A DNA stretch of 64,000 bases from Arcicella rosea (GTDB lineage: Bacteria; Bacteroidota; Bacteroidia; Cytophagales; Spirosomataceae): assembly GCF_014204325.1 (NCBI RefSeq), contig NZ_JACHKT010000005.1:1-64000 (forward strand), written 5' to 3'. A program made the position numbers and the translations under genes. Below, one piece after another: positions 1 to 55,506 of the stretch (positions are counted from its first letter, which is position 1; each line of letters begins with the position of its first letter). The notes under the pieces are model-generated. The model saw only the letters and a program-made list of their open reading frames with translations, did no database searches and was not told where the DNA came from.

Positions 1-83
1 GGATGAAGTTGCAAAGCAACCTCTCCTTCAAGAATAGCAAATATAAAAATAATTATAATCAAATAATAGGATTTTAAGACAGT

Positions 84-118
84 ACCTCAAAGCTCAATGC
101 TGAGAGCTGAAGACTAAA
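84..118. repeat. 7-bp periodic intergenic repeat
   Basis: Five consecutive heptads (acctcaa, agctcaa, tgctgag, agctgaa, gactaaa) run into the stop codon of the epimerase gene. The same 7-bp periodicity recurs at 13579, 40161, 40331, 41300, 42435 and 54424. The period is read directly; no function is known to me. Confidence 0.6.
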
Positions 119-3024: not shown

Positions 3025-3030
3025 AATAAA

Positions 3031-3268
3031 GACTTTAGGATTTTGGACTCAAGGACTTGAAGATGATTTATTGCTAAATCAAATTTCCTGTTGTCTTAAA
3101 GTCCAGATAAGGACTTTAGGATTTTGGACTTAAGGACTTGAAGATGATTTATTGCTAAATCAAATTTCCTGTTGTCTTAAAGTCCAGATAAGGACTTTCG
3201 GATTTTGGACTCAAGGACTTGAAGATGATTTGTTGCTAAATCAAATTTCCTGTAGTCTTAAAGTCCTA
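3031..3268. repeat. 81-bp tandem repeat, about three copies
   Basis: Units start at 3031, 3112 and 3193 with an exact 81-bp spacing and only a few substitutions. Each unit opens with a 7-bp-periodic block (gacttta ggatttt ggactca aggactt) and closes with cttaaagtcc, which can pair with ggactttag at the unit start. It fills the space between the convergent cdaA and photolyase genes, so it might act as a multi-hairpin transcription barrier; that role is inferred. Confidence 0.85.
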
Positions 3269-11948: not shown

Positions 11949-13574
11949 ATGTCATCTGTAAAAAACTTAGAAGCACTATTTCCGACCGAAGCTCAGATTC
12001 CTGCGGAATATAACCTCACTGAGCCGATTGAGCAAAGGGAGTATTTAGTAAACGGTGAGATGCGCCAATGGGCTGGTAAAACCCAAGACGTTTGGTCTCC
12101 GATTTATGTTCAAACGGCAAATGGTTTAGAACAAAAAAGAATCGGTTCGTACCCAATCACGAATCCAGAAGATGCAATGGAGATTTTGGATGCTGCTGTT
12201 AAAGCTTTTGACCACGGTCGTGGCGAGTGGCCTTCAATGTCTGTAGCCCATCGTATTGAATGCGTTGAGAAATTCACGCAGCAAATGATTACGAAACGTG
12301 ATGAAGTAGTGAAATTATTGATGTGGGAAATCGGTAAATCTTTAGGAGATTCACAAAAAGAATTCGACCGTACCGTTCAATATATTTATGATACAATTGG
12401 TGCTTTGAAAGACATCGACCGTAATTCTTCAAGATTTATGATTGAAGAAGGAATTATCGGACAGGTTCGTCGTTCGCCACTTGGTATTGTTTTGTGTATG
12501 GGACCATTCAATTATCCATTGAATGAAACATTTACGACTTTAATCCCAGCGTTGATTATGGGAAATATCGTGATGTTCAAGCCACCAAAACATGGGACTT
12601 TATTGCATTATCCATTGCTAGAAGCTTTCCGTACTTCATTCCCTGCTGGTGTAATCAACACTATTTATGGTCGTGGAAATTCGGTAGTTCCGCAATTGAT
12701 GGAATCTGGTAGAATTGATGCTTTGACTTTGATTGGTTCGTCGAAAGTAGCGGATAAATTGAAAAAAATGCACCCCAAAGTAAACCGTTTGAGAGCAATT
12801 TTAGGACTAGATGCTAAAAATGCTGCCATTGTTACTGAAAGTGCAGATTTAGAATTAGCCGTGAAAGAATGTATGTTAGGTTCATTGTCGTTCAACGGTC
12901 AGCGTTGTACAGCTTTGAAAATGATGTGGGTTCACGAATCGTTGGTTGATGCTTTCAACAAACGTATGTCAGAAGAAATTGGCAAGTTGAAATTGGGTAT
13001 GATGTGGGAAAAAGGAGTAAACATTACGCCACTTCCTGAACCAAACAAACCAGCATATTTAAAAGAATTGATTGAAGATGCCATAGCACATGGTGCAAAA
13101 GTAATCAACGAAGGTGGTGGAGAATCGTTCAAATCAATTGTTTACCCAGCATTGGTATATCCTGTGACTAGAGAAATGAAAGTATGGCATGAAGAGCAAT
13201 TTGGCCCATTAGTTCCAGTTGTAGCATTCAGCGATATTCAAGAGCCAATCAATTATTTAATTGAATCATCTCATGGACAACAAGTATCTATTTTCAGTAA
13301 AGATGTACACCAAATTTCTGAATTAATGGATGTTGCCGTTCACCAAGTTTCTCGTGTAAATATTAACTCACAATGTCAGCGTGGACCAGATGGTTTCCCA
13401 TTCACTGGTCGTAAAGATTCAGCAGAAGGAACACTCTCAGTAACAGCGGCTTTACGTTCGTTCTCAATTAGAACGGTAGTAGCAACAAAAGAAACAACAG
13501 AGAACAAAGCAATCATTAACCAAATTGTAGAAAACCAAGAATCAACATTCCTTTCTACTCGTTTTATTTGGTAG
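11949..13574 (+). CDS. Aldehyde dehydrogenase, GapN-like (NADP-dependent glyceraldehyde-3-phosphate dehydrogenase family)
   Basis: An ALDH-superfamily enzyme of 541 residues, most similar by motif to non-phosphorylating GAPDH. The catalytic cysteine sits in FNGQRCTALK (Cys320), a GapN-type signature. PFNYPLNETF and the C-terminal QRGPDGFPFTGRKDSA block also fit. An oddity is that the usual ELGG(K/N)D general-base segment reads GLDAKN, so the catalytic glutamate is replaced by Gly286; Asp288 is nearby. This may be a feature of a Bacteroidota subfamily. If active, the enzyme would bypass phosphoglycerate kinase and generate NADPH. Monocistronic, followed by a strong terminator. Confidence 0.8.
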   Translation: MSSVKNLEALFPTEAQIPAEYNLTEPIEQREYLVNGEMRQWAGKTQDVWSPIYVQTANGLEQKRIGSYPITNPEDAMEILDAAVKAFDHGRGEWPSMSVAHRIECVEKFTQQMITKRDEVVKLLMWEIGKSLGDSQKEFDRTVQYIYDTIGALKDIDRNSSRFMIEEGIIGQVRRSPLGIVLCMGPFNYPLNETFTTLIPALIMGNIVMFKPPKHGTLLHYPLLEAFRTSFPAGVINTIYGRGNSVVPQLMESGRIDALTLIGSSKVADKLKKMHPKVNRLRAILGLDAKNAAIVTESADLELAVKECMLGSLSFNGQRCTALKMMWVHESLVDAFNKRMSEEIGKLKLGMMWEKGVNITPLPEPNKPAYLKELIEDAIAHGAKVINEGGGESFKSIVYPALVYPVTREMKVWHEEQFGPLVPVVAFSDIQEPINYLIESSHGQQVSIFSKDVHQISELMDVAVHQVSRVNINSQCQRGPDGFPFTGRKDSAEGTLSVTAALRSFSIRTVVATKETTENKAIINQIVENQESTFLSTRFIW

Positions 13575-13578
13575 TTGA

Positions 13579-13613
13579 CAGCTTTAAGTCTTGAGCGATG
13601 AGCTTTGAGATTT
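13579..13613. repeat. 7-bp periodic intergenic repeat
   Basis: Five heptads (cagcttt, aagtctt, gagcgat, gagcttt, gagattt) lie directly after the aldehyde dehydrogenase stop codon and before its terminator. Confidence 0.5.
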
Positions 13614-31139: not shown

Positions 31140-31234
31140 AAAAAACTTATTATACGGTAAGTTTTCTTGGTATAATGCAAATTATGGGAGTAGTAAATTG
31201 ATAACAGCATTTTGTGCATAAGCACTTACAAAGT

Positions 31235-31467
31235 GATAATAGCCACTTACATTGAGTGAATAGCCATATTATTTTAGGTATATGCCATTTACATTGAGTG
31301 AATAGCCCTATTATTTTTGATAATTGCCACTTACATTGAGTGAATAGCCATATCACTTTTGATAATAGCCATTTACATTGAGTGAATAGCCGTATTATTT
31401 TTGATAATAGTCATTTACATTGAGTGAATAGCCCTATTGCTTTTGATAATAGCCACTTGCATTTATA
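31235..31467. repeat. 42-bp minisatellite, about 5.5 copies
   Basis: The word acattgagtgaatagcc recurs with an exact 42-bp spacing (the attgag part at 31251, 31293, 31335, 31377 and 31419), with flanking gataatagcca(c/t)tt. Units start at 31235, 31277, 31319, 31361, 31403 and 31445. It ends 14 bp before the left attachment-like sequence of the mnmE element. Confidence 0.95.
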
Positions 31468-36499: not shown

Positions 36500-37765
36500 T
36501 TATAAATCTAACTGAATTGCATTACTGGCTTTTCGTTTAGTTTCATCTACAATCTTAGCATACACTTGTGTAGTCTTTAAATCTCTATGCCCTAACATTT
36601 TACTAACAGTATAAATATCAGTGCCATTGACCAATTGTAAAGTTGCAAAAGTGTGTCTAAAGCCATGAAACCCCAAACCCTTATTGATTCCTGCTTTCTC
36701 CAACCATTTCGGAAGCAAGTACACAACTTTAGAATATTTCAAGCCTTTAAATACTATCTGTTCATCTTTTGTACGTTCTCCAAGTAAATGATAAGCTTGA
36801 TTAGAAATTGGATGATTATCCTCAACTAATTTTGTTTTTTGTTGAGTAAACCGAATGTAAGCCCCTTCGTTTTCATCCAAATACACGTTACTCCATTTTA
36901 AGTTTTTTATGTCAATGAATCTTAGACCCGTCAATGCAGAAAACAAACAAACCCTTTTTAACAAATCATCTTCAAATTGTGTGTTTGCAAGACGTTTAAG
37001 CTCTTCCATACTCAAAAATTCCCTACTTGTTTCAAGTGTCGGAATGATGTCAATTTTATTGTTTAGTGGCTCATTTATTACGCCATCTTTGTAAGCTTGC
37101 TTCAAACAAGCCTTTAGTTTATTAAAGTACGATACCGCTGAATTTTGTGATAATGTAAACTTGGTACTTTTACGGCTTGGTGCTTTTAATAGGTACTCTT
37201 TGAAGTCATTACAAAACCTTTCGTTTAATTGTCTTACTTGCAAAGTTCCACCCGTAAAAGCTTCCAAATAGTGTAAACAGCTAATCCAATTATCTGAATT
37301 ACTCCCTTTTCGCTTATGAGCCATACTTTTAAAATATTTGATAAAGTCAATCGACAATCTTCTTTCCTCTTCCTTTTCCAATAATTTTCTTTTTGCTTGT
37401 TCTGCCTCTTCTTTTTCAAGCATTTGTTCAAATCTTTCGTGTGACTTTGAAAATTTCTCACTTGGATTCAACTCATTTTCTCTTGTGTTTCTAATCTGTT
37501 GAGCGGTATTGAGCGTTTCTAAATTCTTTTCACGCTCTAAGTTTATTTTTAACTGTGCAAGTGCATCTAATTTATTTATTTGTCTATCTGTCAGTTTTTC
37601 AGAATTAGCAGAATGATAGAGGTACAAGCCCAAAAACTCCCTTCGAGTACTCTTTCCATCTTCCCCCTTAATAGCTGGATAAAAATCAAGATATAAGCTT
37701 TCACGACTTCCTGATATACTTTTTTTTCTTAGCGTCACTTTAATAGCTTTACTTTTAGTACTCAT
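36500..37765 (-). CDS. Tyrosine recombinase (complete active site)
   Basis: A 421-residue integrase. It has an N-terminal arm-binding segment (SRESLYLDFYPAI), a lysine- and glutamate-rich helical linker (about 95-140), a core-binding domain and a catalytic domain with R282 (TGLRFID), H367/R370 (HGFRHTF), H393 (LGHRDLKTT) and Y402 (QVYAKI). All catalytic residues are present. It probably drives integration at the mnmE end, alone or with the neighbouring recombinase 41 bp downstream. Confidence 0.92.
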   Translation of the reverse strand: MSTKSKAIKVTLRKKSISGSRESLYLDFYPAIKGEDGKSTRREFLGLYLYHSANSEKLTDRQINKLDALAQLKINLEREKNLETLNTAQQIRNTRENELNPSEKFSKSHERFEQMLEKEEAEQAKRKLLEKEEERRLSIDFIKYFKSMAHKRKGSNSDNWISCLHYLEAFTGGTLQVRQLNERFCNDFKEYLLKAPSRKSTKFTLSQNSAVSYFNKLKACLKQAYKDGVINEPLNNKIDIIPTLETSREFLSMEELKRLANTQFEDDLLKRVCLFSALTGLRFIDIKNLKWSNVYLDENEGAYIRFTQQKTKLVEDNHPISNQAYHLLGERTKDEQIVFKGLKYSKVVYLLPKWLEKAGINKGLGFHGFRHTFATLQLVNGTDIYTVSKMLGHRDLKTTQVYAKIVDETKRKASNAIQLDL

Positions 37766-37786
37766 AATCTGCGGTTAGTTATTTAA

Positions 37787-38137
37787 TCAAAAAATCTTAT
37801 CAATGTCAATTCGTCTTATTCTCGTTATTCTTTGCCCTAAATTAATTGCACTTAATTTTCCTGTATTAATCAGATTATAGACCGTCTTAGTTGATGCGTT
37901 CAATAATTTGGCTGTCTGTTTAGCAGTCAAAAATTCTAACTTATTTATTTCTTCAATTGGCTTTTTATTGACCTCCTTTGTTTTTGACACACTGGCACTA
38001 ATTTTAATATTACGCTGATTTTCCTTGTAGGCTCTGCTATTACACTTGTGCGAGCAGTATTTTGTCTTTGTGGTTTTAGCTAAAAAATCACATCCACAAT
38101 AAAGGCAAACACGTTGAATATTGATGTTTGATGACAT
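37787..38137 (-). CDS. Excisionase-like HTH protein with N-terminal zinc finger
   Basis: ATG 38137 gives 116 residues (ATG at 38155 would add six). The N-terminal part has a CxxC ... CxxxC finger (CLYCGCDF and YCSHKC). The C-terminal part is a HTH_17/excisionase domain (FLTAKQTAKLLNASTKTVYN, then GKLSAINLGQRITRIRRIDID). It is the first gene of the integrase operon, next to the mnmE end, and likely directs excision or regulates the recombinases. Confidence 0.82.
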   Translation of the reverse strand: MSSNINIQRVCLYCGCDFLAKTTKTKYCSHKCNSRAYKENQRNIKISASVSKTKEVNKKPIEEINKLEFLTAKQTAKLLNASTKTVYNLINTGKLSAINLGQRITRIRRIDIDKIF

Positions 38138-38257
38138 ATTTACACCTCGTTCCAAGAGGTATTTAAGGTTATTTAGATAGAAATAAGGGTATTTAAGTGA
38201 AGTTATTTCGCCAATTCTTCATTTATAACTACGAAAATATGCAATTTTAGAACACGA

Positions 38258-38396: not shown

Positions 38397-38414
38397 CTAC
38401 TTTCCAATACAAAA
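38397..38414 (-). repeat. Right attachment site candidate (attR), end of mnmE
   Basis: The last codons of mnmE, ttttgtattggaaagtag (FCIGK-stop). It matches the left copy at 14 of 18 positions, with all differences synonymous. Confidence 0.75.
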
Positions 38415-39755
38415 CTTAGAAAATATATTCGCTAATAAATCATCAGTAGTAATTTGTCCTGTGATTTCGCCTAAGTGGTGGAGAGCAAAACGGATGTCTT
38501 GGGCAAGGAAATCGCCTGTGACGCTTTGGTCTAAACCTTGCAAAACGTTTTCTAATGCTCCGTTGGTTTGTAATAAATGTTGATAATGGCGGAGGTTGGT
38601 CACCACCGTATCGCCTGCTTTTATTTCTTTAGTTTTTACTTTTCTGACCAAAGTATCTTTTAATACCTCAATATTTTTGTTTTCAGAGGCAGAAATCCAA
38701 AGGATAGCTGGATAAGTAGCTTCAAAATCGGCTTTTTGTGTAGCGGATAATTTATCTACTTTGTTACCGACCAAAATATACGGTGCATTAAATTCCGTAA
38801 TTTGTTGGGCTATTTCAGTAAGTTGAATTTCGGAAGCATCAAACAAATAGACAATTAAACTGGCTTTGTCCATTTGTTGTAAAGTACGTTCTACACCAAT
38901 GGCCTCGATGGTATCGGTAGTTTTGCGTAAACCTGCCGTGTCAATCAATCGGAAACGAATGCCTTCGATAAATAATTCATCTTCAATCACATCACGAGTT
39001 GTGCCTGCAATGTCTGAAACAATGGCTTTTTCTTCGTTTAATAAACGATTCAACAAAGTAGATTTTCCTGCATTGGGTTTTCCTGCAATCACAGTCGGCA
39101 CGCCATTTTTGATAACATTCCCCATTTCAAAACTATCAATCAAAGGAATGAGTACTTGTTGAATTTTAAAGATTAACTGACGTAAATCATCACGGTCGGC
39201 AAATTCTACGTCTTCTTCGCCAAAGTCTAATTCCAGTTCTATCAAAGAGGCGAAGTGAATTAAGGCTTCACGAAGTTGGGCAATTTGCTTTGAAAATCCT
39301 CCTCTGATTTGATTAATAGCAGTTTGGTGAGACGCTTCTGAGTCGGAAGCAATTAAATCAGCAACGGCTTCTGCTTGGGCAAGGTCTAATTGTCCGTTCA
39401 AAAAAGCACGTTGGGTAAATTCTCCCGGATTTGCCAATCTTGCTCCTTCACGGAGGATTAATTTTAAGATTTTCTGAATGATAAAATCCGAACCGTGACA
39501 AGAAATTTCGATGGTATCTTCACGAGTATAAGAAGAAGGAGCTTTGAAAAGTGAAACCAGTACTTCATCAATAATGGTTTGGTTATCTCTGATTGTCCCG
39601 AAATGAATGGTATGTGAAGCTTGTTTTTCAAGGTTTTTACCTTTGAAAATTCTATTAACAATCGGAAAAGTTTCTGGCCCAGAAACACGAATTACGCCAA
39701 TTGCTCCAATGCCTTGAGCAGTAGCTAAGGCACAAATTGTATCTTGATTAAACAT
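38397..39755 (-). CDS. mnmE: tRNA uridine-5-carboxymethylaminomethyl modification GTPase MnmE
   Basis: Together with MnmG it modifies the wobble uridine of several tRNAs. ATG 39755 gives 452 residues starting MFNQDTICALATAQ, the usual N-terminus; upstream in-frame ATGs lie in a palindromic repeat and are not used. The inserted G domain shows GKPNAGKST, DIAGTTRDVIEDE, DTAGLR and GNKVDKL. The C-terminal FCIGK ends in the catalytic cysteine motif and is kept intact by the element inserted right at this point. Confidence 0.96.
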   Translation of the reverse strand: MFNQDTICALATAQGIGAIGVIRVSGPETFPIVNRIFKGKNLEKQASHTIHFGTIRDNQTIIDEVLVSLFKAPSSYTREDTIEISCHGSDFIIQKILKLILREGARLANPGEFTQRAFLNGQLDLAQAEAVADLIASDSEASHQTAINQIRGGFSKQIAQLREALIHFASLIELELDFGEEDVEFADRDDLRQLIFKIQQVLIPLIDSFEMGNVIKNGVPTVIAGKPNAGKSTLLNRLLNEEKAIVSDIAGTTRDVIEDELFIEGIRFRLIDTAGLRKTTDTIEAIGVERTLQQMDKASLIVYLFDASEIQLTEIAQQITEFNAPYILVGNKVDKLSATQKADFEATYPAILWISASENKNIEVLKDTLVRKVKTKEIKAGDTVVTNLRHYQHLLQTNGALENVLQGLDQSVTGDFLAQDIRFALHHLGEITGQITTDDLLANIFSKFCIGK

Positions 39756-39758
39756 GAA

Positions 39759-39858
39759 TTTGTAACACGATTTGATTTTGCGACCGCTCGCAATCGTGGT
39801 TTGAGTGAACATTTGAGCCGATTGCGAGAAGTCGCTTCGAGCCAAATCGTATTACAAA
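39759..39858. repeat. 100-bp imperfect palindrome
   Basis: Outer arms tttgtaacacgatttg (39759-39774) and caaatcgtattacaaa (39843-39858) match with one mismatch; inner arms gcgaccgctcgcaatcg and cgattgcgagaagtcgc match with two. It fills the whole spacer between mnmE and the SCP2 gene and lies 3 bp from the mnmE start codon. Confidence 0.85.
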
Positions 39859-40160: not shown

Positions 40161-40195
40161 TAGTGATTGGTAAATAGTGATTGGTGATTAGTATT
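40161..40195. repeat. 7-bp periodic repeat
   Basis: Heptads tagtgat, tggtaaa, tagtgat, tggtgat, tagtatt. This is the inverted counterpart of the tract at 42435-42473, more than 2 kb away. Confidence 0.7.
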
Positions 40196-40330
40196 TCAAT
40201 CAACTAATTATCAATTACTTAATGGAAATAAAAGGTTTCTTGAAATGTATTGTTTAATAAATAAATCCAATATATTTATACATAAGGTCAAAGCTTATTG
40301 CTTACTGCCTACCAAGAATTTAATTTTAAA

Positions 40331-40420
40331 AGCTGATGACTGAAAGCTCAAGGCTCGAAGCTCGAAGCTCGCAGCTGACGACTGAAAGCTGACAGCTCAA
40401 GGCTCATAGCTCACAGCTAA
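40331..40420. repeat. 7-bp periodic repeat, about 13 units
   Basis: Thirteen heptads of the type agctgat, gactgaa, agctcaa, ggctcga and so on, ending one base before the stop codon of the dienelactone hydrolase gene. It is the longest such tract in the window. The remaining 40196-40330 is AT-rich with no other feature. Confidence 0.85.
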
Positions 40421-40421
40421 A

Positions 40422-41282
40422 TTACGAAATCGTCTCCTTAAATACCCTCAAAGTAGCATCCCAAGCTTTTTTCGCTACTTCCGCATTATAACGAGTAGGA
40501 GCGGTATCATTGTTGAAAGCGTGTTGAGCACCTTCATATACATAAAGTTCGTATTTTGTACCAGCTGCTTTTAGGGCCGCTTCGTAAGCAGGAATACCAG
40601 CATTGATGCGTTCGTCTAAGCCTCCATAATGTAATAAAACTTTTGCTTTGATTTTGGGAACATCCGCCGCTTCGGGCTGGCGACCGTAATATGCTACTGC
40701 TGAATTAAGCGTTGGTGAATTGACAGCCAATTGATTTGCCAAAGCACCACCCCAACAAAAACCTACGCAACTGGTTTTGCCATTACTTTTAGGTAAAGAT
40801 TTTAAGTAATCAAATCCTTTCAAGAAGTTATTGGTATTTTTTTGAGGTTCGATTTTACTAAATAAATTTCTTGCTTCGTCTTCGTTTTCTGGTGTGCCGC
40901 CAAAAGGTGAAAGAGCATCCACCGCCAAGGCATAGTAACCTGCTTTCGCCACTCTTCGAGCTACGTCTTTGGTGTGCGGGTTCAAGCCACGGTTTTCGTG
41001 AATGATGATTACTGCCCCAATTTTTCCTTTGATTTTTTTAGGTTGAGCCAAATAAGCTTTCATCGTACTGCCATCACCTTCATAAGTAACGTCTGATACT
41101 TCTATGTCTTCGTCATTTTCTTGAATCGTTGCGGCATTGGCGTAATTTACTTCTAACAAAGGTAAAACAGTAAGAGCGGCTACTGTACTTCCTGTTAGTT
41201 TAACAAGACGTTTAATGAAATCTTCACGGCTCAAAGGCTTATGAGTATATTCATCGAAAAGGTTAATAATTTCCTGATTCAT
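40422..41282 (-). CDS. Dienelactone hydrolase family protein, exported
   Basis: A 286-residue alpha/beta hydrolase. The N-terminal 50 residues include a hydrophobic segment (STVAALTVLPLLEVNYANA) after DEYTHKPLSREDF, as in Tat-like or membrane-anchored relatives. The catalytic triad is visible: cysteine nucleophile in GFCWGGA, Asp in GGLDERI and His in GAQHAF. HENRGLNPH is the conserved dienelactone hydrolase segment. The native substrate is unknown. Monocistronic between two 7-bp repeat tracts. Confidence 0.87.
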   Translation of the reverse strand: MNQEIINLFDEYTHKPLSREDFIKRLVKLTGSTVAALTVLPLLEVNYANAATIQENDEDIEVSDVTYEGDGSTMKAYLAQPKKIKGKIGAVIIIHENRGLNPHTKDVARRVAKAGYYALAVDALSPFGGTPENEDEARNLFSKIEPQKNTNNFLKGFDYLKSLPKSNGKTSCVGFCWGGALANQLAVNSPTLNSAVAYYGRQPEAADVPKIKAKVLLHYGGLDERINAGIPAYEAALKAAGTKYELYVYEGAQHAFNNDTAPTRYNAEVAKKAWDATLRVFKETIS

Positions 41283-41299
41283 AGTAAGTTGTTTTATTG

Positions 41300-41418
41300 G
41301 ATTTCAGCTTTCGGTCGTCGGATTTCGGGCTTTAGCTTTTGTGTTAACAGCAAATCTAAAAGTCAAATCCGATGACTGAAGTCCGAAAGCAAAAGGCTGA
41401 CAGCCGATGTCCGAAAGC
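41300..41418. repeat. 7-bp periodic repeat arranged as an inverted repeat
   Basis: Left block (gatttca, gctttcg, gtcgtcg, gatttcg, ggcttta) and right block (aaagtca, aatccga, tgactga, agtccga and so on) are approximate inverted copies, able to form a long hairpin between the dienelactone hydrolase and queG genes. Confidence 0.75.
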
Positions 41419-41438
41419 CAATACCAAAGCTAATATAA

Positions 41439-42365
41439 TTACTTTAAAAACTCTATATTCCTTTTTAGACCAACGTACTTTGTACGCTTTAAAGGTGATT
41501 TTCTAAAGATGGTTTGGAACACTTCTTCAGTGATTTCTTCCCAATCATTTTTAGTAAAATTCGCTAAATCGGGGTGGAGATTAAACTGTGGTTCTTGATG
41601 GGGTTTTGAAAAACGATTCCAAGGACAAACATCTTGGCAGATGTCACAACCGAAAAACCAATTTTCAAACTTATTCTGTACTTCTACGGGAATGGCTTCT
41701 TTCAATTCAATGGTATAATAACTAATACATTTAGAGCCATCAACCACATAAGGTTCAATGATGGCATCCGTTGGACAAGCTTCAACACAACGAGTACAAG
41801 TACCACAATAATCTTTTACGGGGCCGTCGGGTTCTAGTGGCAAATCCAAAATTAATTCTGCAATAAAAAAGAAACTCCCTTGTTTTTTATTGATGAGATT
41901 ACTGTTTTTACCAATCCAACCTAAACCTCCTTTTTTCGCCCAAGCTTTATCCATTACTGGTGCAGAATCTACAAAAACTCTTCCTCCAACTTCTCCAATC
42001 TCTTCTTGAATGTACTCTAAAAATGCTTTTAGTTTCTCTTTTACCACAAAATGATAATCTGTACCATAAGCGTATTTTGAAAGTTTTAAATCATTTACAC
42101 CTTCGGGTAATCTTTGAGAAGGATAATAATTAAAAAGCAAAGAAACCACCGACTTGGCATCGTCCACCAATAATCGTGGGTCGAGGCGTTTGTCGAAATG
42201 GTTTTCCATGTACTGCATTTTGCCCTGATGATTTGCTTTTAGCCAATTTTCTAGTCTTGGTGCTTCTTCTTCCAAAAATCCAGCTTCAGAAATGCCACAA
42301 AAATCAAAGCCTAATTCTTTGGCTTTTTGTTTAATTAAGAAAGAATATTGGGCTTTGTTAATCAT
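41439..42365 (-). CDS. queG: Epoxyqueuosine reductase QueG
   Basis: Reduces epoxyqueuosine to queuosine in tRNA, a cobalamin- and Fe-S-dependent cytoplasmic enzyme. Two 4Fe-4S sites are visible: [16 protein letters not shown] near 184-199 and [11 protein letters not shown] near 238-248. The 308-residue length is shorter than E. coli QueG (about 379), lacking the C-terminal repeat domain, as in many Bacteroidota. queA, the preceding step, is at 5100-6152. Confidence 0.94.
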
Positions 42366-42434
42366 TTATGAAGTAATCAATACAATTTAAGCAACGTTTT
42401 CATTTATCTTAAACAATTGGTAAAAGCAATTTGA

Positions 42435-42473
42435 AATACTAATTACCAATCACTATTTACTAATCACTACCTA
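42435..42473. repeat. 7-bp periodic repeat
   Basis: Heptads aatacta, attacca, atcacta, tttacta, atcacta, then cctaa, which runs into the stop codon of the dioxygenase gene. It is the inverted counterpart of the 40161 tract. Confidence 0.7.
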
Positions 42474-43346
42474 AGCAATTTTTACAGAAGTCATCGTCAG
42501 AGAACCACCCACTGGCACATCGTTGAAAAAGCTAGCTTCTTCGTTTTTCTCTTGCATTCCTAAAATATATAATAAAGGATAGTAGTGGTCGGGTGTAGGA
42601 ATTGCCAATTTAGCGGCTTGTCCCATACTTTCGTAATTTATTAAGTCTTTATGATTTCTTTCTGTGATATTCTTTTTGAATTTTTCATTCATTTCAATCG
42701 CCCAATCATAGCCATAAGTACTATTTATTTTCTGAAAATCTACCATTCTTAGATTATGCACCATATTTCCACTTCCAATAATTAGTACTCCTTTTCTACG
42801 CAATGTGGCTAATTCTTGTGCTAATTCATAATGATATTGTGGCGACTGATGATAATCGATACTCAATTGTAAAATCGGAATATTGGCTTTTGGATAGATA
42901 TGACGAATGATTGTCCAAGTTCCATGGTCTAAACCCCAATCATGGTCTAAATGAACTCCTGTTTTTGTAATGAGTTTCTGAGTTTCTTCTGCTATGGCTG
43001 GGCTACCAATGGCTGGATATTGTACATCAAATAACGCTTTAGGAAAACCACCAAAATCATGAATTGTTCTAGGTTTTTCCATAGCAGTTACAAAAGTACC
43101 TCTTGTAAGCCAATGTGCCGAAATACATATTACCGCAGTTGGTTCAGGAAAATCTTTCGCTAAAGTTGCCCATTGCTGACTGAACTGATTATTTTCGATA
43201 CCATTCATCGGAGAACCATGCCCTATAAATAATAATGGAGTCTTTTGTTCTTGTTGTGATAATTGCTCAGAAAATACTTTTAACGTTCCTAATGCTGACA
43301 TGGCTAATACCCCAGTGGTGGCTTTTATAAATGTTTTACGATTCAT
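42471..43346 (-). CDS. 4,5-DOPA dioxygenase extradiol-like protein (YgiD family)
   Basis: A class III extradiol dioxygenase-fold protein of 291 residues. Family blocks: FIGHGSPMNGIENN with a metal histidine, ICISAHW, DHGTW, VLIIGSGNMVHNLR and PTPDHYYPLLYILG. The N-terminal 27 residues (MNRKTFIKATTGVLAMSALGT) look like a Tat-like or general signal, suggesting export, which not all YgiD relatives have. The natural substrate is unknown; catechol-type ring cleavage is inferred from the family. Confidence 0.88.
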   Translation of the reverse strand: MNRKTFIKATTGVLAMSALGTLKVFSEQLSQQEQKTPLLFIGHGSPMNGIENNQFSQQWATLAKDFPEPTAVICISAHWLTRGTFVTAMEKPRTIHDFGGFPKALFDVQYPAIGSPAIAEETQKLITKTGVHLDHDWGLDHGTWTIIRHIYPKANIPILQLSIDYHQSPQYHYELAQELATLRRKGVLIIGSGNMVHNLRMVDFQKINSTYGYDWAIEMNEKFKKNITERNHKDLINYESMGQAAKLAIPTPDHYYPLLYILGMQEKNEEASFFNDVPVGGSLTMTSVKIA

Positions 43347-43557: not shown

Positions 43558-44988
43558 ATGAATTTTAGTTTTGACAACTACCAAACCGAAGGCTTCTTCG
43601 ATGAAATGTTTGATGCACAAGGTAATGTGCGTATGGGTTACGAAGCATTTAAGGAACGGGTAGAACAGTTAAAGATTGAAGAGTTTACTCGTCGCCACCA
43701 AGCAGCCGAACGTTCGCTGATGGCAATGGGTATTACATTCAATGTTTATTCGGAAAATGAAGGAACAGAACGCATTATGCCTGTTGATATTATTCCCCGA
43801 GTAATTGAAGCTGAAGACTGGAAAAAAACCGAAAAAGGGTTAATACAACGTATTACAGCTTTGAATATGTTTTTGGATGATATTTATCACGACCAAAAAA
43901 TATTGAAAGACGGTATCATTCCTCGTGAATTAATCGAAACTTCAAAAGACTTTTTGCGTCCTTGTGTGGGGATTCGTCCACCAAAAGGCATTTATATTCA
44001 CATTACTGGTACGGATTTAATCCGTGGTGATGACGGAAAGTTTATGGTTTTGGAAGACAACCTCCGCTGTCCATCAGGTGTTTCTTACATGCTTGAAAAC
44101 AGAGAACTACTAAAACGTACTTTCCCTGAAGTATTGGGTAAAACCAGAGTGCAATCTATTTCTGATTATCCAAACAAATTGTTGCAGATGTTACAACACA
44201 TCAGCGACCGTCCAAATCCTACGGTTTGTGTATTGACTCCGGGAATTTATAATTCAGCTTACTTTGAACATTCGTACTTAGCACAACAAATGGGTGTTGA
44301 ATTGGTAGATGCCAGAGATTTAGTCGTGCATGATGGTTATGTGAAAATGAGAACCACTAAAGGTTTTCAAATTGTAGATGTAATTTATCGTAGAATTGAC
44401 GATACTTTCTTAGATCCAAAAGCATTCAATCCTGATTCATTAATTGGTATTCCAGGGATTTTTGATGTGTATAAAAAAGGTAGAGTTGCTTTAGCGAATG
44501 CACCCGGAACAGGCGTTGCTGATGATAAAGTAATTTATGCTTACGTACCAAGAATCATCAAGTATTATTTAGGCGAAGACCCAATCATTCCAAATGTTGA
44601 AACTTTTATTTGTGGTGAGGAAGCTGATTGCAAATATGTGTTAGAAAATATTGAGAAATTGGTAGTAAAAGAAGCCAATGAAGCGGGTGGTTATGGTATG
44701 TTGATTGGACCAAAATCAACGAAAGAAGAACAAGAAATCTTTAAAGCACGTATCAAAGCAAATCCAAGAAATTATATTGCTCAACCTACGATTTCACTTT
44801 CAAGAGTTCCATGTTTGATTGATGATCACTCAGAAGGCAGACACGTTGACTTACGTCCATACATACTTTATGGAGATGGCGTAAAAGTAATTCCGGGCGG
44901 CTTAACCCGTGTAGCATTGCGCAAAGGCTCTTTAGTAGTAAATTCATCACAAGGTGGAGGTTCTAAAGATACTTGGGTATTGTATTAA
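43558..44988 (+). CDS. Circularly permuted type 2 ATP-grasp protein
   Basis: A 476-residue ATP-grasp protein (former DUF404/407) probably forming an amide or peptide-like bond. Visible family segments: [39 protein letters not shown], and [15 protein letters not shown], plus [12 protein letters not shown]. In many genomes this gene is followed by an alpha-E domain protein and a transglutaminase-like gene; here a terminator follows directly, so it stands alone. Confidence 0.9.
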
Positions 44989-53111: not shown

Positions 53112-54425
53112 ATGAAAATAGCAGTAGTCGGCACAGGATATGTAGGATTAGTAACAGGTACTTGTTTTGCAGAGACTGGTAATCAAGTAGTTTGCGTTGA
53201 TATAGATGCAAACAAGGTTGAGAAGATGAAAAATGGTATCATTCCAATTTATGAGCCAGGTCTTGATGTATTATTCAACAGAAATACGGCAGAGGGTCGT
53301 TTGAAATTCACTACAGATTTAGCAGAAGGAATCAAGGATGCAAAAGTGATTTTCTTAGCTTTACCTACTCCTCCAGGTGAAGATGGTTCAGCCGATTTGA
53401 AATATATTTTGAAGGTTGCTAATGATTTAGGGCCAATTTTAGATCAATATGTAGTAGTAATCGATAAGAGTACAGTACCAGTTGGTACAGCAGAGAAAGT
53501 CCATGCTGCCATCGCCAAGAATGCTTCTACTGAATTATTTGATGTAGTATCGAATCCAGAATTTTTAAGAGAAGGTGTTGCTGTAGAAGATTTCATGAAA
53601 CCCGACCGAGTAGTAATCGGTACAAGTTCAGAGAAAGCTAAAGGAGTAATGACGAAATTATATGCACCATTGGTTCGCCAAGGGAATCCTGTTATTTTCA
53701 TGGACGAACGTTCAGCAGAAATGACGAAATATGCTGCGAATGCTTTCTTGGCAACTAAGATTACTTTCATGAATGAAATTGCTAATCTTTGTGAAATGGT
53801 TGGAGCGAATGTAGATGATATTCGTAGAGGAATAGGGACAGATTCAAGAATCGGTAAGCGTTTCTTGTTTGCAGGGATTGGTTACGGTGGAAGTTGTTTT
53901 CCCAAAGATGTTCAAGCATTAGAGAAGACTTCAAAAGATTCTGGCTATGAGTTTCAGATATTGAAAGCTGTAATGACTGTTAACGAAGATCAAAAGACTA
54001 AATTAATTCCACATATCAAAGCACATTTTGGTGGAGATTTGAAAGGAAAAGTATTTGGAATGTGGGGCTTGGCTTTCAAGCCATACACAGATGATATTCG
54101 TGAAGCACCAGCTTTGTATAATATCAAAGAATTGTTAGCGGAAGGAGCTATCATCAAAGCCTTCGACCCAGAGGCGATGGAGAATGTGAAAGGAGTAATT
54201 GGAGATACAATTACTTATACCAAAGGTCCTTACGAAGCTATCAAAGATGCAGATGCAGTATTAATCATGACTGAATGGCCACAATTCCGTACACCAGAGT
54301 TTGAGGTGATGGAAGTGTTATTGAAAGATAAAGTAATCTTCGATGGTCGTAATTTGTATGAATTAGAACAAATGAAGGAATTGGGATATACTTATTATTC
54401 AATTGGTAGAGAGACAGTTAAATAA
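53112..54425 (+). CDS. ugd: UDP-glucose 6-dehydrogenase
   Basis: Oxidises UDP-glucose to UDP-glucuronate with two NAD. N-terminal Rossmann motif GTGYVGLVTGTCFAE (7-21), the SNPEFLREG segment, and the catalytic cysteine in GYGGSCFPKD near 257-262. 437 residues. Followed 100 bp later by the UDP-glucuronate decarboxylase gene, which uses its product. Confidence 0.95.
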   Translation: MKIAVVGTGYVGLVTGTCFAETGNQVVCVDIDANKVEKMKNGIIPIYEPGLDVLFNRNTAEGRLKFTTDLAEGIKDAKVIFLALPTPPGEDGSADLKYILKVANDLGPILDQYVVVIDKSTVPVGTAEKVHAAIAKNASTELFDVVSNPEFLREGVAVEDFMKPDRVVIGTSSEKAKGVMTKLYAPLVRQGNPVIFMDERSAEMTKYAANAFLATKITFMNEIANLCEMVGANVDDIRRGIGTDSRIGKRFLFAGIGYGGSCFPKDVQALEKTSKDSGYEFQILKAVMTVNEDQKTKLIPHIKAHFGGDLKGKVFGMWGLAFKPYTDDIREAPALYNIKELLAEGAIIKAFDPEAMENVKGVIGDTITYTKGPYEAIKDADAVLIMTEWPQFRTPEFEVMEVLLKDKVIFDGRNLYELEQMKELGYTYYSIGRETVK

Positions 54426-54516
54426 TTGTGATTTAGTGAATTGTGATTGAGTGATTTTTTGAAATTAATACTTCATATTAGAAATCACTCAATCACAACT
54501 CACTAAATTACTAACT
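54424..54516. repeat. 7-bp periodic repeat as long inverted repeat
   Basis: Arms at 54433-54457 and 54482-54506 pair in 24 of 25 positions. Both arms are also built from heptads (aattgtg, atttagt, gaattgt, gattgag). It sits between two genes of a probable operon and could shape the relative expression of uxs; this is inferred. Confidence 0.85.
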
Positions 54517-54525
54517 ATATAAAAT

Positions 54526-55506
54526 ATGAAACGAGTATTAATAACAGGTGGAGCGGGTTTCTTGGGTTCTCACCTTTGTGACAGATTTATCAAAGAAGGC
54601 TATCATGTGATAGCGATGGATAATTTGATTACTGGTGATTTGAAGAATATCGAACACCTTTTCAAATTACCGAATTTTGAATTTTACCACCATGATGTAT
54701 CTAAGTTTATCCATGTACCAGGTGAATTAGATTATATCCTTCATTTTGCATCTCCAGCTTCACCGATTGACTATTTGAAGATTCCAATCCAGACATTAAA
54801 AGTTGGTTCATTGGGGATTCACAATTGCCTTGGCTTAGCAAGAGTAAAAGGAGCAAGAGTATTGATTGCTTCAACCTCAGAAGTTTATGGCGACCCAACG
54901 GTTCATCCACAACCAGAAGAGTATTGGGGAAATGTAAACCCAGTAGGGCCAAGAGGAGTTTATGATGAAGCGAAACGTTTCCAAGAAGCGATGACGATGG
55001 CTTATCATACTTTCCACGGTTTAGAGACAAGAATTGTTAGAATCTTTAATACTTATGGCCCAAGAATGCGACTGAATGATGGTAGAGTATTACCTGCATT
55101 CATCGGTCAAGCTTTAAGAGGTGAAGACCTAACGATGTTTGGCGATGGTTCACAGACAAGAGCCTTCTGTTATGTAGATGACTTGGTAGAAGGAATCTAT
55201 CGTTTATTACTAAGTGATTATGCACAACCAGTAAATATTGGTAATCCTGATGAGATAACGATCAAGGAATTTGGCGAAGAGATTATCAAACTGACAGGAA
55301 CAGAGCAAAAGTTAATTTCATTACCATTACCAACAGATGACCCTAAGCAACGTAAACCAGATATTACGAAGGCAAAGGCGATATTAGGTTGGGAACCTAA
55401 AGTGAGTCGTTCAGAAGGCTTGAAGATTACTTATGAATACTTCAAATCTTTATCAAAGGATGAGTTATTCAAAATGGCTAATCATAGAGATTTTGAGAAA
55501 AAATAA
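54526..55506 (+). CDS. uxs: UDP-glucuronate decarboxylase (UDP-xylose synthase), SDR family
   Basis: Converts UDP-glucuronate to UDP-xylose using bound [17 protein letters not shown] at the N-terminus binds NAD. The catalytic threonine/serine lies in [10 protein letters not shown] and the tyrosine and lysine in [23 protein letters not shown] and [15 protein letters not shown] are typical of the group. 326 residues. The ugd-uxs pair makes UDP-xylose for surface glycans. Confidence 0.93.

Follow-up and report, generated by a model that had tools for sequence, protein, structure and literature searches.

We propose that the heptad-periodic tracts seen in the window, a 64,000-nt stretch of the Arcicella rosea genome (contig NZ_JACHKT010000005.1), belong to a set of dispersed repeats in which arrays of a degenerate heptad, NRGYNWT, face each other across a short unrelated centre, in spacers that need neither a promoter nor a terminator. 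Most of them would be tolerated passengers, and we give this reading as a whole a probability of roughly 60%. It builds on direct observation of the geometry, the common heptad, the placement of the arrays, multi-heptad blocks that recur, positions that congeners no longer share, and arm lengths in Microcystis that change mostly in steps of 7 nt. The data comprise 1.25 Mb of the A. rosea genome (5.3 Mb, 77 contigs), 0.8 Mb of one congener (G005) and 0.4 Mb of another (G007); 959 kb of the A. rosea sequence, the window included, consists of whole contig runs rather than pieces picked for their repeats. Genes were called as the longest ORFs, which makes their stops firm but their starts less certain. 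The arrays in the window are the following:

82-109, minus strand: four-heptad array (CAGCTCT CAGCATT GAGCTTT GAGGTAC), directly past the stop of the minus-strand gene 114-1157.
3026-3266, no strand: three 81-bp tandem units, the starts of which are made of 8- and 7-bp units (GGACTTTA GGATTTTG and so on), a period-8 sister class.
13579-13613, plus strand: five-heptad array, 5 nt past the stop of gene 11949-13574, in a convergent spacer.
40161-40195, plus strand: left arm (TAGTGAT TGGTAAA TAGTGAT TGGTGAT TAGTATT), a copy of a dispersed five-heptad string and the head of a dispersed repeat of about 105 bp.
40329-40419, minus strand: 13-heptad array (TAGCTGT GAGCTAT GAGCCTT and so on), the right arm opposite 40161, beginning 2 nt past the stop of gene 40422-41282.
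41298-41339, plus strand: left arm (TGGATTT CAGCTTT CGGTCGT CGGATTT and so on) in the hydrolase/QueG spacer.
41352-41427, minus strand: right arm (TTGGTAT TGGCTTT CGGACAT CGGCTGT and so on), starting 11 nt past the QueG stop.
42435-42469, minus strand: single array (TAGTGAT TAGTAAA TAGTGAT TGGTAAT TAGTATT), directly past the stop of gene 42471-43346; the window's second copy of the string.
54424-54516, plus strand: near-perfect hairpin with arms of 7/8-bp units (GTGATTTA GTGAATT GTGATTGA GTGATTT), between the stop of gene 53112-54425 and the start of gene 54526-55506.

In the spacer that precedes 32097, the window also holds a tandem array of another make (31234-31463), in which a 42-bp unit with a sub-period of 21 bp is repeated 5.5 times. 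At 36500-38155 lie genes for a tyrosine-type site-specific integrase and a small helix-turn-helix protein, adjoining an MnmE/TrmE-like gene (38397-39845); they probably mark where an integrated mobile element ends, and the nearest plasmid-borne relatives of the integrase are found in Bacteroides and related genera.

The original prediction was of a strict 7-bp period, and the comparison that it put forward, intergenic lag-7 autocorrelation against shuffled sequence, gave a z of 13.5 over 400 kb relative to dinucleotide shuffles (local shuffles for the single tracts below). Lags 14 and 21 were raised as well, and coding DNA in the same autocorrelation showed no lag-7 excess; the window by itself gives a lower z of 2.8 at lag 7, and 5.6 at lag 14. 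Tracts of period 7 number 80 in the 959 kb, against 9 in shuffles. Most of the tracts that were named do peak at 7 bp: lag 7 is the best of lags 6, 7 and 8 at 84 (P = 0.017), 13579 (P = 0.007), 40331 (P < 0.01), 41300 and 42435 (P = 0.02 each), and also at 40161, although not significantly there (P = 0.07). A strict period of 7 is not borne out, as the unit at 3031 and the tract at 54424 fit lags 8 and 15 rather than 7, being made of units of 8, or of 7 and 8 alternating (the TRF period for the 54424 tract is 15). Arrays of period 8 in fact form a second genome-wide class, found in 22 spacers and in no shuffle.

A single matrix, obtained by expectation-maximisation with phase and strand left free, fits 51 tracts and gives the consensus NRGYNWT, of which GAGCTTT, CGGATTT, TGGTGAT and GAGTTAT are examples; it scores 2.16, against 1.42 ± 0.08 after permuting the columns of each array. 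The two congeners yield the same matrix de novo (r = 0.88). Scanning with the matrix at a 14-bit threshold found 90 arrays (3 in shuffles), and a slightly stricter setting used for mapping found 76 in the 959 kb, which extrapolates to about 420 in the whole genome. A pattern search through the phylum gave matches in 105 of 296 genomes; we use it for breadth alone, since its reversed-pattern control is not independent, heptads such as TAGTGAT matching the reversed pattern too.

Within spacers, the G/T-rich strand points inward from either side, the matrix lying on the plus strand at the left and on the minus strand at the right. Of the arrays no more than 12 nt from a stop codon, 68 are in sense orientation and 1 is antisense, and of those more than 40 nt from a stop, 69 are antisense and 4 sense; the matrix training set overlaps part of the data used for these polarity counts, but position did not enter the training, and the side rule in the two congeners (85 to 20) is independent of it. 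Among spacers with at least two arrays, 68 of 69 are convergent across A. rosea, the two congeners, cyanobacteria and other named genomes, and no divergent (-+) pair was seen in any data set scanned. The proportions are 35/35 in A. rosea, 18/18 in the congeners and 15/16 in named public genomes, the loci of which came from a scan with a pattern that already contains the heptad (cyanobacteria 10/10; Bacteroidota 4/4, one of them ++-; others 1/2, the exception being --). In cyanobacterial spacers neither the phase nor the strand of the de novo matrix was clear, and its side counts did not reproduce the rule, so that polarity there rests on the scanner (10/10). A general G/T skew of spacers is ruled out as the cause, as array-free spacers show no matching skew (0.502 and 0.493). 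A polarity kept in 68/69 cases across phyla calls for a cause, and comparison of close strains can test for one.

The arms start a few bases past a stop codon and finish just ahead of the next start. That the tracts abut stop codons, as had been noticed in the window, extends to the wider data: 69 of 150 stop/array combinations (46%) begin within 12 nt of the stop, compared with 15% for random placement. In codirectional spacers with two arms, a median of 4 nt precedes the first arm and one of 9 nt follows the second, with a median of 23 nt separating the two; such arrays span the spacer from stop to start, and the median of 42 nt left leaves little room for a separate promoter. Divergent spacers are shunned in A. 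rosea (2% with arrays against 9-12%). Spacers in congeners (L073 and G005 C1:51984-52093) carry other periodic inverted repeats, with units of about 8 (GCAAAGAC) and about 10 (CACAGAGTTT), where A. rosea has other sequence or a heptad array, and these may obey a similar polarity.

Exactly this convergent polarity, along with independent arms, single arms and units of 7 or 8 nt, is what would be expected if the arrays were scars of end extension, in which both 3' ends at a break gain G/T-rich heptads from a telomerase-like or slippage-prone polymerase and are then joined. No such enzyme is known, however, unit sequence varies inside one array, and the shared multi-heptad order and conserved centres described below point to copying of whole blocks, making this origin highly improbable. 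A telomere-like activity common to Bacteroidota, cyanobacteria and giant sulfur bacteria, adding G/T-rich units of 7-8 nt to both broken 3' ends, is a similarly long shot; if true, it would explain why polarity is universally convergent while the arms are non-complementary.

Placement right past stop codons and the avoidance of divergent spacers could also reflect a role in RNA, as 3' hairpins that form when both arms pair within the transcript, ending it or shielding it from decay, much as has been proposed for REP sequences. Some arrays are indeed near-perfect hairpins: the folding foreseen for the 54424 tract was borne out, with an MFE of -42.4 kcal/mol and a z of -11.5. The arms of one locus, moreover, pair better with each other than with swapped arms (-33.5 vs -22.4 kcal/mol) and agree at more positions of their consensus heptads (5.5 vs 4.5 of 7), which leaves room for selection on pairing. 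Nevertheless, many loci have plainly different arms (L220, GGGGAAT/TTGTTAT; L238, TAGTTTT/GAGAATT; likewise L236 and L247), many arrays are single-armed, and A. rosea spacers fold no more strongly with arrays than without (z -3.75 vs -3.56). Arm lengths at the first Microcystis locus are uncorrelated (rho 0.17), and pairing by itself demands no single polarity. A heptad order common to both arms is weak (Stouffer z of 4.1, 0.9 and 2.9 in three data sets); this and the differing arms make it unlikely that base pairing is the constraint that sets the geometry, and we regard 3' hairpins as an unlikely explanation of the arrays overall.

Terminator-like sites, too, are absent from the arrays or independent of them. 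In codirectional spacers they occur in 1 of 73 with arrays, which is the background level, compared with 89 of 413 without, and in convergent spacers in 38% and 45%, respectively. As far as the sequence can tell, these counts lead us to reject the arrays as intrinsic terminators (a hairpin followed by a T run) and leave the suggestion that the tracts shape transcript ends unsupported. Spacers of this sort should not lightly be taken for terminators or regulatory hairpins. No match in the window reaches the Rfam gathering score. The simplest reading is that arrays are tolerated where the spacer needs nothing else, with an effect on mRNA stability inside operons still conceivable.

Evidence for copying comes from a 32-nt string of five heptads, TAGTGATTRGTRAWTAGTRATTGGTRATTAGT, which occurs 21 times in A. 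rosea and 10 times in G005 (control 0) and is present in three further congeners. Several copies, including both of those in the window, are alike across about 105 bp. It weighs against our reading that a block order is clearly common to only part of the arrays. The inverted relation between the 40161 and 42435 tracts, correctly recognised from the window, is thereby explained, each being a copy of this string, and pairing across 2 kb is needless. That 21 sites, and another species too, have the five heptads in identical order weakens the view that each array arose separately by plain slippage of a simple heptanucleotide, as in the long simple sequence repeats of Mrazek. That view would account for the 7-nt length steps in Microcystis, and in most of the genomes examined by Mrazek (2007), as that work is cited in PMC4679880, no long simple repeat is commoner than the heptanucleotides; but it leaves both the common degenerate heptad and the fixed polarity unexplained, and we think it quite improbable.

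Positions are not conserved between the congeners. Among 22 conserved adjacent gene pairs, four have an array in A. rosea only, three in the relative only and none in both (0/7 common), and downstream of QueG none of seven congeners has an array at threshold (one, L072, has a weak four-heptad candidate). In the window (40422-43346) QueG is flanked by a dienelactone-hydrolase-like gene and by gene 42471-43346, neither of which was found in the QueG flanks fetched from the seven congeners; in L072, L074 and L075, QueG adjoins a relative of 43558-44988 instead. The idea that arrays mark changes of gene order was rejected, as adjacency in codirectional and convergent spacers is conserved in 4/14 cases with arrays and 12/52 without, showing no enrichment of breaks.

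In Microcystis, arrays persist at four orthologous spacers in nearly all of 11-12 genomes, and flanks and centre stay while arm lengths change. The left segment of the first spacer measures 55, 62, 69, 83, 90 or 97 nt in 11 genomes, differences that are always multiples of 7, and its right arm varies independently of the left. The remaining three spacers also show variation in arm length, and the steps across Microcystis are mostly of 7 nt. No empty site with intact flanks was found among the four spacers, so that insertion would be no more than a presumed mode of dispersal. In one Microcystis genome (L480), the spacer left of the probe gene holds a different pair, GGGGAAGTG-type at the left and CTGTCTC-type at the right, and the sequence on its far side differs too.

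Dispersed copies with inverted arms, including the family of about 105 bp, would also suit elements of the MITE or REP type, mobilised in trans by a transposase able to recognise the arms. A 250-bp array element (L206:4900-5160) represents a large dispersed family: a query holding it gives 51-63 matching places in each of three Microcystis genomes, some alike through the centre. We nonetheless judge such elements very unlikely, in that a locus often has two unlike arms, the number of units is free and no target duplications, which an empty site would reveal, were identified. Mobilisation by RAYT proteins (Y1 transposases, PF01797) was rejected for lack of array enrichment near their genes, with 4 arrays in 91 kb, or 4.4 per 100 kb against 10.8, the latter figure coming partly from stretches picked for arrays. 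No mobilising enzyme for the arrays was found.

We return to tolerated, dispersed arrays as our preferred reading, for which we can offer a rough scheme. Existing array DNA would be copied into new spacers by some agent, creating new sites; the arms might then lengthen and shorten through slipped-strand replication in steps of 7 (or 8) nt and diverge through point mutation, and most arrays would persist as passengers rather than as terminators.

The long simple sequence repeats of Mrazek (2007) and the cyanobacterial STRR heptamers are likewise tandem units of 7 nt, mostly intergenic. The arrays here differ from them in being degenerate, in having a common heptad and in their fixed two-arm polarity. 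REP/REPIN and MITE palindromes are also dispersed inverted repeats in spacers, whereas our arrays have no fixed palindrome, differ between arms and show no RAYT association, and the exclusion of REP sequences made from the window holds, as does that of CRISPR and of ordinary clean microsatellites. The claim of an uncharacterised genome-wide repeat system stands as regards its genome-wide extent, but "uncharacterised" goes too far, since repeats of this kind are on record from Beggiatoaceae, cyanobacteria, some Bacteroidetes and Xanthomonas (PMC4679880, PMC4692102).

TAACTGA repeats occur in Beggiatoaceae, cyanobacteria and five Bacteroidetes, as direct repeats of one clean heptamer for which translational control was proposed (MacGregor 2015, PMC4679880). 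They share with our arrays this spread, an intergenic position close upstream of start codons and the same strand sense; TAACTGA is the reverse complement of CAGTTAT and scores 5.8 bits in our matrix, where the 95th percentile of random heptamers is 4.9. In congener G007 this kind is abundant as CAGTTAT arrays, and in A. rosea other heptads dominate. Unlike TAACTGA, the arrays here consist of many degenerate heptads, with paired convergent arms and a period-8 class.

The heptamers GGGAATC of Xanthomonas and GGGGA(T/C)T (GGGGAYT) of Nostoc form 70-75 convergent pairs per Xanthomonas genome, with few of the Nostoc repeats paired, and in all three genomes the G-rich repeat lies on the coding strand when just past a stop and on the non-coding strand when just ahead of a start (Rehm 2015, PMC4692102). 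A. rosea arrays obey the same strand rule, and their pairs are convergent; they are also of the Rehm and MacGregor kind in having 7-nt tandem units, mainly intergenic, with 8-nt units occurring too. As members of the NRGYNWT matrix GGGAATC and GGGGAYT are rejected, since they score 2.1-2.7 bits where random heptamers average 2.5. They can form G-quadruplexes (PMC4692102), while A. rosea arrays, by inspection, hold at most GG per unit almost throughout and thus lack four runs of at least three G. In Xanthomonas, 90% of the repeats have the same flanking ORFs in two species (PMC4692102), compared with 0/7 between A. rosea and its congeners. The strand rule, the convergent pairs (Rehm 2015, PMC4692102) and the kind of repeat are thus already known; what is added here is that the arrays have a common but degenerate heptad, that the geometry holds in Bacteroidota and that the arms are non-complementary, together with a class of period 8, dispersed multi-heptad blocks and independent change of unit number in the arms. 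TAACTGA, GGGAATC and GGGGATT, each reported apart, and the large degenerate set of the Bacteroidota share one geometry, with the G-rich strand pointing inward from both sides.
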